The notes under the pieces are model-generated. The model did not search any database, was not told where the DNA came from, and saw only the letters and a program-made list of their open reading frames with translations. Below are positions 54,673 to 59,304 of a stretch of DNA of 64,000 nucleotides, piece after piece. The DNA lies in contig JALTBN010000043.1 of assembly GCA_027075325.1 (NCBI GenBank), positions 1,634 through 65,633 of the forward strand, written 5' to 3'. Both the position numbers and the translations under genes were made by a program. Position 1 is the first letter of the stretch; each line of letters starts with the position of its first letter. The stretch comes from Thermococcus sp. (GTDB taxonomy: Archaea; Methanobacteriota_B; Thermococci; Thermococcales; Thermococcaceae).

Positions 54673-56370
54673 TTGAGCATGGGAAATTACACAAAGGGAG
54701 CCAGAATCAGCACGGACAGGGTACTACACGATATTGGAGAGATAACTCAGTTCCACAGGATACAGGGCTCAAGAGAGCTCGTTGAGGCCGTTAAATACAT
54801 CGAGGAGGAGCTCTCTGCATGGGGTATCGAATCAAAACGGCTCGACAGAACGTACGATGGAAAGAGCTTCTACCTGACGCTCAGGAGTCCAATAGCCTGG
54901 AACCTCATCAGCGCGGAGCTTGATTGGGACGGGAGAAAGGTTACATCGGATGAAACACCCTTGATGGTCATGGCCCACTCCCCACCGGGGGAAGGGGAAG
55001 GAAGCGTACTCCCTATACTTCGAGAAGAGGACTGGAAACGGGCGGAGGGAAAAATCGTCCTCGCTGGAAGGAACTGGAGGGAAGCCTACAGGAGGGCCAA
55101 CGAGGAGGGAGCCGTTGCTTTTATCGCTTACCGTAAGGGAACGGGGACCGCTTTTCCCTACATAGGACTCTTCCTGAGCAAAAAAGACCTGGAATGGGCC
55201 GGAATCCCCGCCCTGACAATACCGGAGGCCTGGGCCGATGAGATCATCGAGAAATCGCTCTCCGGCTCGGAAGTTCTCGCCAGATTTGCAGTTCAAACCG
55301 AGACTCCTCCCCAGGAGCGTCTTCCAATCCTCCAGGCGACGATTGGAGAGCCGCCCTTCATAGTATTCACCGCCCATATCTGCCACCCAAAGCCGGGAGC
55401 CAACGACAACGCCTCCGGAAGCGCCATGCTGATGGAACTGGCAAGGGTTCTAAGCAGCACCTGGAATGAGTCCTATCGCTTTGGCTTCTCGTTCCTGTGG
55501 GTTCCCGAATATTATGGTACACAGGCTTTCTTTGCCGGAGACCTCAACCTCAAGGATTATTACGCCGGATTTAACCTCGATATGATTGGGGGGAGCCAGG
55601 ACCGCTCCGGTTCGACTGTAATGGTGATAAGAACACCATTATCCCGGTTTTCAGTTGTTTCGGGTGTTCTCGAAAGGGCCCTTGAGTTGACGAACGTCTC
55701 AGAGAGCAGGGGCCTGACTGGGGAACCCCTACCCGCTGTGAAGCTCAAGGCGTTCCCCTACGAGATGGGAAGCGACCATGATGTCCTAAACTTCTTCGGG
55801 ATTCCCTCGGTAATGCCGATAACTTGGCCCGACAGGTTCTATCACTCAAGCGCGGACACCGTGGAGAAGCTCAGCCTTGACACAATCAAAATCATCGGAA
55901 ACGCCGTCCTCTCATCAGCCCTTTTCCTCGCAGAGGCGCCCTCAAAAGAACTGGAGCGCTTCTCCAGAGGCTATGCCATGAAGTACCTCGGGGAACTCTC
56001 AATGGAACGCGAAACAGAGGTTGCGGAAAAACTGGTCATGATGGGACTGGCGCGGGACTCGGAGTTCCTGGGAATGAAGCTTGGACACAGGTTTAATGTG
56101 GAGCCCTGGCTTGAGTGGGCTCTCAGGGGGAGGATAGGAGAGGATATAGTGGAGCTCAGAGCTGGGGAGCACCTCTATGAGTTCAAGGAGCTAACGAAGG
56201 GCAGGGAGACAATCGTCCACCTCCACGAACTGATAATGCTCGGAGAACTCCTGCCGGAGGAAAAAGCTTATACAGCCCTGAAAGAGGAATATGGAGAGAT
56301 AAGGGTAGAAAAGCTCAGAAAACTCGTAGAACTGACGGAGAAGAGCGGTCTGGTAAGGTGGAAAGATTAA
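54673..56370 (+). CDS. M28-like zinc aminopeptidase, DUF4910-type with PA-like domain; start codon uncertain
   Basis: FTAHICHPKPGANDNASGSAMLMELARVL; WVPEYYGTQAFF; GFNLDMIGG; FYHSSADTVEKL. Confidence 0.85.
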   Translation: MSMGNYTKGARISTDRVLHDIGEITQFHRIQGSRELVEAVKYIEEELSAWGIESKRLDRTYDGKSFYLTLRSPIAWNLISAELDWDGRKVTSDETPLMVMAHSPPGEGEGSVLPILREEDWKRAEGKIVLAGRNWREAYRRANEEGAVAFIAYRKGTGTAFPYIGLFLSKKDLEWAGIPALTIPEAWADEIIEKSLSGSEVLARFAVQTETPPQERLPILQATIGEPPFIVFTAHICHPKPGANDNASGSAMLMELARVLSSTWNESYRFGFSFLWVPEYYGTQAFFAGDLNLKDYYAGFNLDMIGGSQDRSGSTVMVIRTPLSRFSVVSGVLERALELTNVSESRGLTGEPLPAVKLKAFPYEMGSDHDVLNFFGIPSVMPITWPDRFYHSSADTVEKLSLDTIKIIGNAVLSSALFLAEAPSKELERFSRGYAMKYLGELSMERETEVAEKLVMMGLARDSEFLGMKLGHRFNVEPWLEWALRGRIGEDIVELRAGEHLYEFKELTKGRETIVHLHELIMLGELLPEEKAYTALKEEYGEIRVEKLRKLVELTEKSGLVRWKD

Positions 56371-56702
56371 TCGCCAGAGATTTCAGTCTCAAGTTCATCT
56401 ATTTTTTTCAGGAGACTGTTCTTTATTCTCTCAAGAAGTTCGCGGGGGGAGGTGGCGGTGTAAACATAGCCGAGCCACCCCTGCTCAACCAGCTTTCTCT
56501 GGAGAATTCCTTTCCGATACAGGTTGAGGACGTGGGCTCTAACGGAGCGCTCGCTTATTCCAAGCTCCTTTTGAATCTCGGTTATCCTCATGGGGCGCTT
56601 CTTCTCCAGGAGGAGGCGGTATACCCTGAGCTCCCCTTTCTTTAGTCCCATGACCCGCAGGATTCCCTCCAGTTTTTCGTATACGTCCTCTTTAGCACCC
56701 AT
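56367..56702 (-). CDS. Winged-helix transcriptional regulator
   Basis: KGELRVYRLLLEKKRPMRITEIQKELGISERSVRAHVLNLYRKGILQRKLVEQGWLGYVYTATSPRELLERI. Confidence 0.87.
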   Translation of the reverse strand: MGAKEDVYEKLEGILRVMGLKKGELRVYRLLLEKKRPMRITEIQKELGISERSVRAHVLNLYRKGILQRKLVEQGWLGYVYTATSPRELLERIKNSLLKKIDELETEISGD

Positions 56703-56854
56703 GATTTCGCCCCTATGAAAATAGGATTTCATACCTCTTAAAAACTTTGCGTCATTCCCCACCGATATTGGAAGTTACCTGAAATATTTTTAATTTATGT
56801 GGCAACTTTTCAAAAATATCACCAAAATCTGAGCTAAATTGGCAATTATGTCAA

Positions 56855-57022
56855 TGTGGGCCGGGTACAGAGGCCCGCGTTCATCGCTCGCGCGGGTGGA
56901 TGCTCCCGGCCCTGTGGGCTCGGCGTGAGCACTCCCCGCTCACAAAACCCGATGCCTTGCGGGGGCGGATTAACCGAGCCCATGAGGAGACGGAATGTCC
57001 CCTCACTGTCGGCAGAGTGGGG
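56855..57022 (-). ncRNA. Candidate H/ACA guide RNA (two or three stem-loops, each followed by ACA)
   Basis: Minus strand: stem GGGCCGGG (56912-56905)/CCCGGCCC (56865-56858) then ACA (56857-56855); stem GGGCTCGG (56981-56974)/CCGAGCCC (56923-56916) then ACA (56915-56913); K-loop-like GA...AUGA in the first hairpin; TATA-like TTTTTAAG at 57042-57035. No plausible ORF; GC-rich island in an AT-rich intergenic region. Confidence 0.72.
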
Positions 57023-57051
57023 TGGAAAAGAGAGCTTAAAAAGGTAGAGGT

Positions 57052-57519
57052 TCACTCGATCGGGAGTTCCATGTCCTCTTTGTGGGCCTTTAGAACCACC
57101 ATCGTATGTGTGGATTCAACACCCTCTATGTCTCCTATTCTGTCCAGAAAGTCGTTCAGCTCATCGCTGTCCTTTGCGCGGATCTTGACTATCATGTCGT
57201 AGTCTCCGGTGGTCTCGTAGACTTCAACTATCTTGGGGTACTTTCGGAGCTCCCCTGCGACGTTGGCGTACATCCCGGCCTTAGCTTTTATCAGAACGAA
57301 CGCCAGCATACCAAGCCCTATCGATGCCGGGTCAAGGAGGATAGTGAAGCGCCTTATGATGCCCTTTTCTTTGAGCTTCTTTATCCTCTCGTATATCGTG
57401 GACTCAGCCAGGTCCACTTCCTTGGAAATCTCTCTCAGCGGCGTTCTGCTGTTCCTCTGGAGTATCATGAGAATTTTCTTGTCAATTTCATCGAGACCTC
57501 CTCTCACTGCAATCACCAC
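57052..57519 (-). CDS. Lrp/AsnC family transcriptional regulator
   Basis: LDEIDKKILMILQRNSRTPLREISKEVDLAESTIYERIKKLKEKGIIRRFTILLDPASIGLGMLAFVLIKAKAGMY...VYETTGDYDMIVKI. Confidence 0.96.
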   Translation of the reverse strand: MVIAVRGGLDEIDKKILMILQRNSRTPLREISKEVDLAESTIYERIKKLKEKGIIRRFTILLDPASIGLGMLAFVLIKAKAGMYANVAGELRKYPKIVEVYETTGDYDMIVKIRAKDSDELNDFLDRIGDIEGVESTHTMVVLKAHKEDMELPIE

Positions 57520-57648
57520 TAAAAATTTTCGAAAGCATATATAAACCTGCCGATTTTTAGGGAGAACTGGTAACGACCCAGCTGAAAGTCAGCCACATTA
57601 TCTTTATAAAACGCCGGACCCCCATAGGTTCAGAGCAGGGTGGTGAAC

Positions 57649-58815
57649 ATGCCAACGAACGTGACGGCAGAGTACTTGACAGCGGAGGAGGAGTACCACA
57701 GGGCCAAGACGATTCCGGAGAAGATAAGGGCACTGGAGAAGATGTACGCCACAGTTCCAAAGCACAAGGGAACCGAGAAGCTCAGGCTCCAGATAAAGAG
57801 GAAGCTCGCCGAGCTCAGAAAGGAGCTTGAGAAGCAGAGGCAGATGAAGAAGGGCGGTGGTGGCCCGTCGATAGCCGTCAGGAAGGAAGGTGCCGCCCAG
57901 ATAGTCTTGGCCGGCCTCCCCAACGTCGGCAAAAGCTCTCTGCTGAAGGCCCTCACGAACGTCGATGCCGATGTGGCCGACTACGCCTTTACCACGGTCC
58001 AGCCCGTTCCGGGCATGATGCACCACAAGGACGTTCAGATACAGCTCGTCGAGGTTCCCGGCCTCGTTGAGGGAGCCGCCCTCGGAAAGGGCATGGGACC
58101 ACAGCTTTTGAGCGTGATAAGGAACGCTGATGCGATAGCCATCGTTGTGGACCTCTCAAAGGACCCCGTTAAGCAGATGGAGACCCTTCTGCGCGAGTTT
58201 GAGAGGGCGGGGATAAAGGTCAACAAGCGCCGCCCCAGGGTTGAGGTAAAGAGGACTGCCATGGGTGGCATAGTGATCAACGGCGTTGAGAACATAAAGG
58301 GCGACGTGAGCGAGGTCATGAAGATACTCCGCGACGAGAGGATTCACTCGGCGGAGCTGACGGTAAAGGAGCCTGTAACGCTGGAGGAAATTGCGGATGC
58401 CCTTGATGAGAGCCTCGTCTGGCGCAGGGCCATAATCATAGCCAACAAGGGCGACGCCCCCAGCAGTAAGGAGAACTATGAGAAGCTGGTTAAAGCCTAC
58501 GGCGACCGCTTCAAGATAATCCCCGTCTCGGCTAAGAGGAAGATACAGCTCGACAAGCTGAAGGACGAGCTTTATGAATTAGCGGGAATAATCAGGGTTT
58601 TCACGAAGAGCCCCGGCGAGGAGCCGGCGTATCCGCCCGTGCCGCTCAAGAAAGGCTCGACGGTTATGGATTTGGCGGAGAGGATTCACAAGGACTTCGC
58701 CAGGAACTTCCGATACGCGCGCGTCTGGGGCAGGAGCGTCAAGTTCCCGGGCCAGAGGGTCGGTCCGGATCACGTGCTTGAGGACGGGGACATAGTGGAG
58801 ATTCACGCCAGATGA
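57649..58815 (+). CDS. OBG/DRG-family GTP-binding protein with TGS domain
   Basis: IVLAGLPNVGKSSLLKALTNVDADVADYAFTTVQPVPGMM; VEVPGLVEGA; C-terminal TGS GQRVGPDHVLEDGDIVEIHAR. Confidence 0.95.
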   Translation: MPTNVTAEYLTAEEEYHRAKTIPEKIRALEKMYATVPKHKGTEKLRLQIKRKLAELRKELEKQRQMKKGGGGPSIAVRKEGAAQIVLAGLPNVGKSSLLKALTNVDADVADYAFTTVQPVPGMMHHKDVQIQLVEVPGLVEGAALGKGMGPQLLSVIRNADAIAIVVDLSKDPVKQMETLLREFERAGIKVNKRRPRVEVKRTAMGGIVINGVENIKGDVSEVMKILRDERIHSAELTVKEPVTLEEIADALDESLVWRRAIIIANKGDAPSSKENYEKLVKAYGDRFKIIPVSAKRKIQLDKLKDELYELAGIIRVFTKSPGEEPAYPPVPLKKGSTVMDLAERIHKDFARNFRYARVWGRSVKFPGQRVGPDHVLEDGDIVEIHAR

Positions 58816-59304
58816 TTAGTCTTCCTTTGGTACCGGTTCCGGCCTGATTACCTCTATTATTGGAATCCCCTCGAAGTCCTTGTCCAACGTTGCGATTCTC
58901 CTTATCCCCGCGGACACCATTGCTCCCAATATCTTGGCGTCGTGGAGGAGCAGACCGTATTTCTCGGCAACACTGAGGGTGAGGAATATGTCAGGGTCTT
59001 CGATTATTTCTATTCCGTGAGTTCCGATGAATGAGAGCACGAGTTCTGAGGCTTCCCTGAGAAGGGCTTTTCCTCCATCCTCTTTTAAGAAACGCTTAAG
59101 CTCGTGCAGGCTTTTAATTCCCTGAGAGGCTGCCTTCCTTCGGAGGGTAACGTAAACGCACTCGTCTACCACCGTCTCAGAAATCACGGGGTTCTTGGCC
59201 AGTGAAAAGGCCTTCTCAGCCTCATCTGTTAGTTCGGTCTCAAACAGCAGGTTGAGAATGACGTTACTGTCCAGAAAAGTCCTGGTACTCCTGTAGATAC
59301 TCAC
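58816..59304 (-). CDS. PIN domain protein (VapC-like toxin)
   Basis: RTFLDSNVILNLLFETELTDEAEKAFSL...LSVAEKYGLLLHDAKILGAMVSAGIRRIATLDKDFEGIPIIEVI. Confidence 0.87.
   Translation of the reverse strand: MSIYRSTRTFLDSNVILNLLFETELTDEAEKAFSLAKNPVISETVVDECVYVTLRRKAASQGIKSLHELKRFLKEDGGKALLREASELVLSFIGTHGIEIIEDPDIFLTLSVAEKYGLLLHDAKILGAMVSAGIRRIATLDKDFEGIPIIEVIRPEPVPKED

Follow-up and report, generated by a model that had tools for sequence, protein, structure and literature searches.

The window, a stretch of 64,000 nt of DNA from Thermococcus sp., was scanned in full against Rfam and contained a single match above threshold. This match identifies the minus-strand block (56844-57013) as HgcF (Pab35; Rfam RF00058), a box H/ACA guide RNA already known from the Thermococcales; it covered positions 1-168 of 168 of the model with 153.4 bits (gathering score 70) and an E-value of 1.1e-35. 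The RNA itself is already catalogued, and what the locus needs is annotation, not discovery. The original prediction had described the sequence and its coordinates correctly, placing the block at 56855-57022, a few bases off the 57013-56844 given by Rfam. It had called the block unannotated, which holds for the raw window but not for Rfam, and its question whether this matches a known Pyrococcus sRNA was answered by the match to HgcF/Pab35.

HgcF is flanked by two genes on the minus strand, an upstream gene for an Lrp/AsnC-family regulator at 57052-57519 (Pfam AsnC_trans_reg, 8.1e-22, and an HTH_AsnC-type domain) and a downstream gene for a TrmB-like winged-helix protein at 56367-56705 (Pfam TrmB, 4.5e-09). 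The latter is convergent with a plus-strand gene (54673-56370) whose product belongs to peptidase family M28 and also matches DUF4910. On the other side, a plus-strand gene for a TGS-domain GTPase (MMR_HSR1 and TGS, DRG-like; 57640-58815) adjoins a minus-strand gene for a PIN-domain protein (58816-59304), both ordinary by Pfam. Directly past the stop codon of the Lrp/AsnC gene a TATA-like box, TTTTTAAG (57035-57042, minus strand), could be read as the promoter of HgcF itself. As had been claimed, it lies upstream of the RNA, 21 nt before the sequence GCCGAC, and this spacing is identical in the P. abyssi gene; the T-run and AA of the promoter region were near-invariant in an alignment of 64 rows. 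The P. abyssi Pab35 transcript starts 4 nt before GCCGAC (PMC4652768), and the 5' end of the RNA from the window is predicted to lie close to 57017. We consider it almost certain that the block is an HgcF gene with its own promoter, whose two H/ACA motifs guide Cbf5 to uridines of 23S rRNA.

Among 115 genomes of the class, RF00058 was found in 92, with one over-threshold match in each, and all 92 belong to the window's own family; a strong copy was absent from the four other families of the class in the same search. In one of these genomes the match, at 318,231-318,398, coincides with the published coordinates of P. abyssi Pab35. Eight genomes gave a weaker second match; the seven full-length ones are HgcE and not further copies of HgcF, and the eighth is a 58-nt fragment (G078). 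HgcF and HgcG RNAs have been detected in the primary transcriptome of T. onnurineus (PMC5316973).

The HgcF region folded with -86.2 kcal/mol, better than its dinucleotide shuffles (z = -3.99). The alignment comprised the window and 63 relatives, and covariation was counted on its 62 distinct rows: across the 45 consensus pairs, 96.3% of cells held standard pairs, and two-sided compensatory changes were seen in 15, most of which belong to the lower or upper stem of one of the H/ACA motifs. Since the pairs hold and a third of them show such changes, the two long hairpins go far beyond what chance would give. The two long GC-rich minus-strand hairpins with ACA that had been described from the sequence thus found support from the family match, the z-score and the covariation, and the Rfam scan and Thermococcales alignment proposed at the time have both given positive results. 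Open frames of 63-69 aa are present on both strands of the block, yet the family match and the structure-preserving substitutions are confined to the minus strand; they agree with the earlier reading of a minus-strand H/ACA guide, and we give practically no weight to a protein-coding block or one expressed from the plus strand.

H/ACA motif 1 (Pab35.1-like) occupies 56913-56981 on the minus strand and consists of a lower stem, a pocket, a GA stem with a K-turn and the ACA at 56915-56913; covariation, the guide-target scan described below and a published target (PMC4652768) all point to it. Its 3' guide strand, GCUCACG (56924-56930, minus strand), was found by that scan to form seven pairs with 23S rRNA 5' of its target uridine, and the 9-nt pocket strand had a mean entropy of 0.04 bits among the relatives. 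H/ACA motif 2 (Pab35.2-like; 56855-56912, minus strand) has the same layout, with a K-loop in place of the K-turn and its ACA at 56857-56855, and was defined by covariation and the target scan. Both hairpins end in ACA and both pockets lie 14-15 nt from it, within the 14-16 nt required of archaeal H/ACA RNAs; for the hairpin described first, this is the distance that had been claimed. On inspection of the alignment, the UGA and GA elements of the K-turn and K-loop were retained in the relatives, and binding of L7Ae to them is predicted.

Between the promoter and motif 1 lies a simple hairpin, GUGAGGGGAC-AUUCC-GUCUCCUCAU (56982-57006, minus strand), which was recovered when each relative was folded separately. 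It is the hairpin (57006-56982) that the original prediction had listed as a competitor of a third H/ACA hairpin, CCCCACT...AGTGAGGGG, and of the two it is the conserved one. The letters of the third hairpin and its ACA are present, and the methods of PMC4652768 list Pab35.1,.2 and.3. However, its 5' arm was unconserved in 55 upstream contexts, the 12 nt before GCCGAC having an entropy of 1.46 bits, and the hairpin leaves no space for a pocket and a K-turn. Because the TATA-like box stands 21 nt upstream as in P. abyssi, this arm would also lie upstream of the expected transcript start or right at it. PMC4652768 moreover gives 11 motifs in P. abyssi, including Pab40.3, which by our own count leaves two for Pab35. 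A third H/ACA motif at this position is thus very improbable. The conserved hairpin likewise has neither the pocket nor the K-turn of an H/ACA motif. No segment of HgcF is more conserved than the hairpin's unpaired 5' end, the 7-nt GCCGACA (0.02 bits), and the two arms of the hairpin differ, the 5' arm being nearly fixed while the loop and 3' arm are variable (1.08 bits).

The HgcF pockets were scanned against the 23S rRNA of the same genome, which alone was informative for pocket targets. The assembly (G000) gave no 16S match although the 23S gene is present on a 12.5-kb contig, which is likely to be an assembly gap. Published P. abyssi numbering was reached by a single constant offset of 26, with a U at every published position checked, and E. 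coli numbering by an alignment offset for which 2580, situated at the foot of helix 90 (PMC2584109), and U2605 (PMC3919597) served as anchors. For each pocket the best 23S match was a uridine of domain V. Motif 1 matched on both sides of own U2675, GUGAGC[UG]GGUUUAG (P. abyssi 2672, E. coli 2580). Motif 2 matched on both sides of own U2700, GACAGG[UC]GGAUGCU (P. abyssi 2697, E. coli 2605), with a lower-ranked candidate at own U2552, UAACAGAG[UC] (P. abyssi 2549, E. coli 2457), where the duplex is mostly one-sided. The published P. abyssi targets are Pa35.1-L2672 and Pa35.2-L2549, the latter retaining just one pair on one of its sides (PMC4652768), in agreement with the one-sided pairing of motif 2 at own U2552. 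P. abyssi 2697 was not found named in PMC4652768, and U2697 as a motif 2 target is therefore a prediction; its homologue here is an additional candidate for the pocket of motif 2. The target originally predicted for the first-described hairpin fared in part: both of its halves occur in 23S rRNA, but split over own U2700 and U2552 (UAACAGAG-U-C).

On the H/ACA side, L7Ae, Cbf5, Nop10 and Gar1 would assemble on the two motifs, motif 1 would present U2675 to Cbf5 for pseudouridine formation and motif 2 would present U2700 and/or U2552. The identity, fold, conservation and guide-target complementarity of HgcF come from the present analysis, and the P. abyssi literature supplies the transcript and the two targets, 2672 and 2549. 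The guide activity of HgcF in the present organism is a prediction, as is pseudouridine at its targets here, which draws on the work in P. abyssi (PMC4652768).

The HgcF/Pab35 RNAs of Pyrococcus and Thermococcus share with the block the full-length covariance match, the two H/ACA motifs, the 5' hairpin, the promoter spacing and the 23S target sites. The copy in the window differs from known HgcF in nothing essential, the differences being one G-U for a G-C in the antisense pairing discussed below and an 8-bp lower stem in motif 2. HgcE/Pab105 (RF00060) and HgcG/Pab40 (RF00064) are likewise Thermococcales H/ACA guides, but different ones, and the HgcE model scored 21.4 bits on the HgcF locus against a cut-off of 50. 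The same genome carries both HgcE (L031, contig C26) and HgcG (L099, contig C19), and in three relatives (G035, G053 and G082) some 7 kb separate HgcE from HgcF. Pab21/snoR9 (RF00065) is also a compound guide transcript, joining an H/ACA motif to another guide element (PMC4652768); its model reached 21.4 bits on the HgcF locus against a cut-off of 90. The second element of Pab21/snoR9 is a C/D guide, whereas in HgcF no CUGA box follows the antisense stretch of the 5' element: in the 63 aligned copies the sequence directly 3' of it is GKACA.

The near-invariant strand GCCGACAGYGRGG of the 5' element is complementary to own 23S positions 2593-2605, CCUCGCUGUCGGC, over 13 contiguous nt in the peptidyl-transferase region. 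In the window this antisense element, GCCGACAGUGAGG (57001-57013, minus strand), includes the 5' arm of the hairpin among its bases and forms 12 Watson-Crick pairs and one G-U, as against 13 Watson-Crick pairs in the consensus. The 23S site was identical in 14 of 14 sequences from five genera, and 13 of 13 pairs form in all 63 aligned copies, where the variable positions (C/U, A/G and one A/G) switch only between Watson-Crick and G-U pairing. Outside these 63, one copy (G070) has lost the terminal pair and another (G067) lacks the hairpin altogether, and both count against a role of the pairing. The only occurrences of the element GCCGACAGYGRGGGKACA in the rest of the class, with up to one mismatch allowed, were in HgcF and at two stray one-mismatch sites (G040 and G052). 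The antisense is the only 13-nt rRNA match of this kind in P. abyssi HgcF. A scan of the genome's own HgcE for a comparable rRNA antisense gave best runs scoring 18-21 and no 13-nt Watson-Crick match.

When the 18-nt consensus element was shuffled, a 13-nt stretch of Watson-Crick complementarity to 16S or 23S rRNA arose with P = 6.5e-4, and with P = 4.4e-4 for the Pyrococcus version, in a test that was set up after the conservation had been seen. In the window background 23 of 128,000 positions carry such a match, or about 1e-3 per element of equal length, and in the whole shuffled HgcF a 13-nt rRNA antisense occurs somewhere with P = 0.023. The variable positions are also compatible with the pairing of the hairpin itself and, since the rRNA side never varies, it cannot covary with the element; the antisense is therefore a good candidate and not a proven interaction.

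The site at own 2593-2605 lies between the pocket targets at 2552 and 2675. Own 23S 2603-2607, GGCUC, is complementary to 2671-2675, GAGCU, and we take these segments to be the two strands of helix 90, with which the position of E. coli 2580 at the bottom of that helix (PMC2584109) is consistent. On this assignment the pairing of the 5' element reaches three bases into the first strand, and U2675, the target of motif 1, is in the second. The antisense duplex was calculated to be more stable than the hairpin that it would replace, at -28.3 against -15.1 kcal/mol at 37 C; for 85 C the two values were -9.5 and -2.5 kcal/mol. With the duplex favoured and a toehold from which to invade, the 5' hairpin would help to open helix 90 or to anchor the RNP. 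The unpaired GCCGACA would serve as the toehold on 23S 2599-2605, and pairing would then extend into the hairpin's own arm to a total of 13 bp; the duplex would hold the 5' strand of helix 90 open and free the other strand for motif 1, while the element would anchor the RNP on the peptidyl-transferase region.

We put the chance that the 5' hairpin serves as an accessory element, anchoring the RNP on the rRNA or opening the helix, at a little short of even. The alternative is a hairpin that merely acts as a stabilising cap, a protein or processing signal or a transcription-start element, with the 23S match a coincidence, and this is nearly as probable, likewise somewhat below even. It accords with the position of the hairpin at the 5' terminus, some 4 nt from where the P. 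abyssi transcript begins (PMC4652768), with changes at the Y and R positions that likewise keep the hairpin paired, and with the chance level of about 0.02 for a 13-nt antisense in the whole RNA. A cap, however, needs no invariant unpaired GCCGACA, nor would it leave the 3' arm free to vary and the 5' arm not, and the HgcE RNA of the same genome has a 5' sequence unlike that of HgcF. The shuffled-element value of 6.5e-4 speaks against coincidence, as does the location of the site inside the 150-nt 23S region addressed by the two pockets, a point in favour of the antisense that was noticed post hoc. A switch, in which the 5' GCCGA would pair with UCGGU of motif 1, was also considered and is argued against by two copies (L049 and L079) that have CCCG or CCGG for UCGG while GCCGACAG is fixed, as judged by eye.

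The antisense site also lies between own U2588/U2591 and U2606, own U2588 being P. abyssi 2585 and own U2606 being P. abyssi 2603, and so adjoins Psi2603 and is near the orphan Psi2585. In T. kodakarensis, Cbf5-Gar1 can form Psi2607 (P. abyssi 2603) guide-independently, whereas Psi2589 (P. abyssi Psi2585) needs Cbf5, Nop10, Gar1, L7Ae and an RNA that is still sought (PMC6138745), and the antisense of HgcF touches upon this ongoing search. HgcF could itself be the missing RNA, its 5' hairpin placing the H/ACA proteins 5 nt from the uridine: RNA-seq of the active fraction revealed no new H/ACA RNA (PMC6138745), and the pairing of the 5' element begins 5 nt past own U2588 and ends beside Psi2603. 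Yet sRNPs made from six P. abyssi H/ACA sRNAs, with Pab35 probably among them, all failed to make Psi2585 (PMC6138745), and for this reason we rate a direct guide role as improbable. The published mini-substrate (2583-2599) furthermore shares just 6 nt with the antisense site, and the unpaired gap would be 5 nt instead of the usual 2. Pairing of GGGCUCGG by own U2588, taken as a possible other half of a guide, reached 6 Watson-Crick pairs and one G-U of 8, which is at the chance level of such a search, and was rejected.

HgcF may thus be bifunctional, with two pockets and a toehold antisense of 13 bp to the helix 90 5' strand that would open or anchor the rRNA and may contribute to the orphan Psi2585/2589, a combined reading that we advance tentatively and consider slightly less likely than not. 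A role of H/ACA RNPs as rRNA chaperones in archaea and eukaryotes has long been suspected and is still called speculation by a recent review (PMC7991803). An RNA that would pair over 13 nt with the catalytic centre beside its own targets is a candidate for such a chaperone and, if the pairing is real, HgcF would be a case of an archaeal H/ACA RNA that naturally carries an arm dedicated to rRNA chaperoning. In certain yeast box C/D snoRNAs (e.g. snR13) a second rRNA-complementary stretch outside the guide boosts nearby modification (PMC5389607); these are eukaryotic and of the C/D class, unlike the archaeal H/ACA RNA HgcF. No description of a function for the first hairpin of HgcF was found in the searchable literature, to which the primary work of 2002-2008 did not belong, and within that scope the antisense 5' hairpin is possibly a new element. 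A concrete role for this conserved hairpin may be the useful addition made here. The HgcF copy that lacks it (G067; L107, G067:C7:6500-6800) misses the whole 5' hairpin, so that the promoter is followed directly by motif 1, and both of its H/ACA motifs are intact; it is a natural deletion and should be useful for probing the role of the 5' hairpin.
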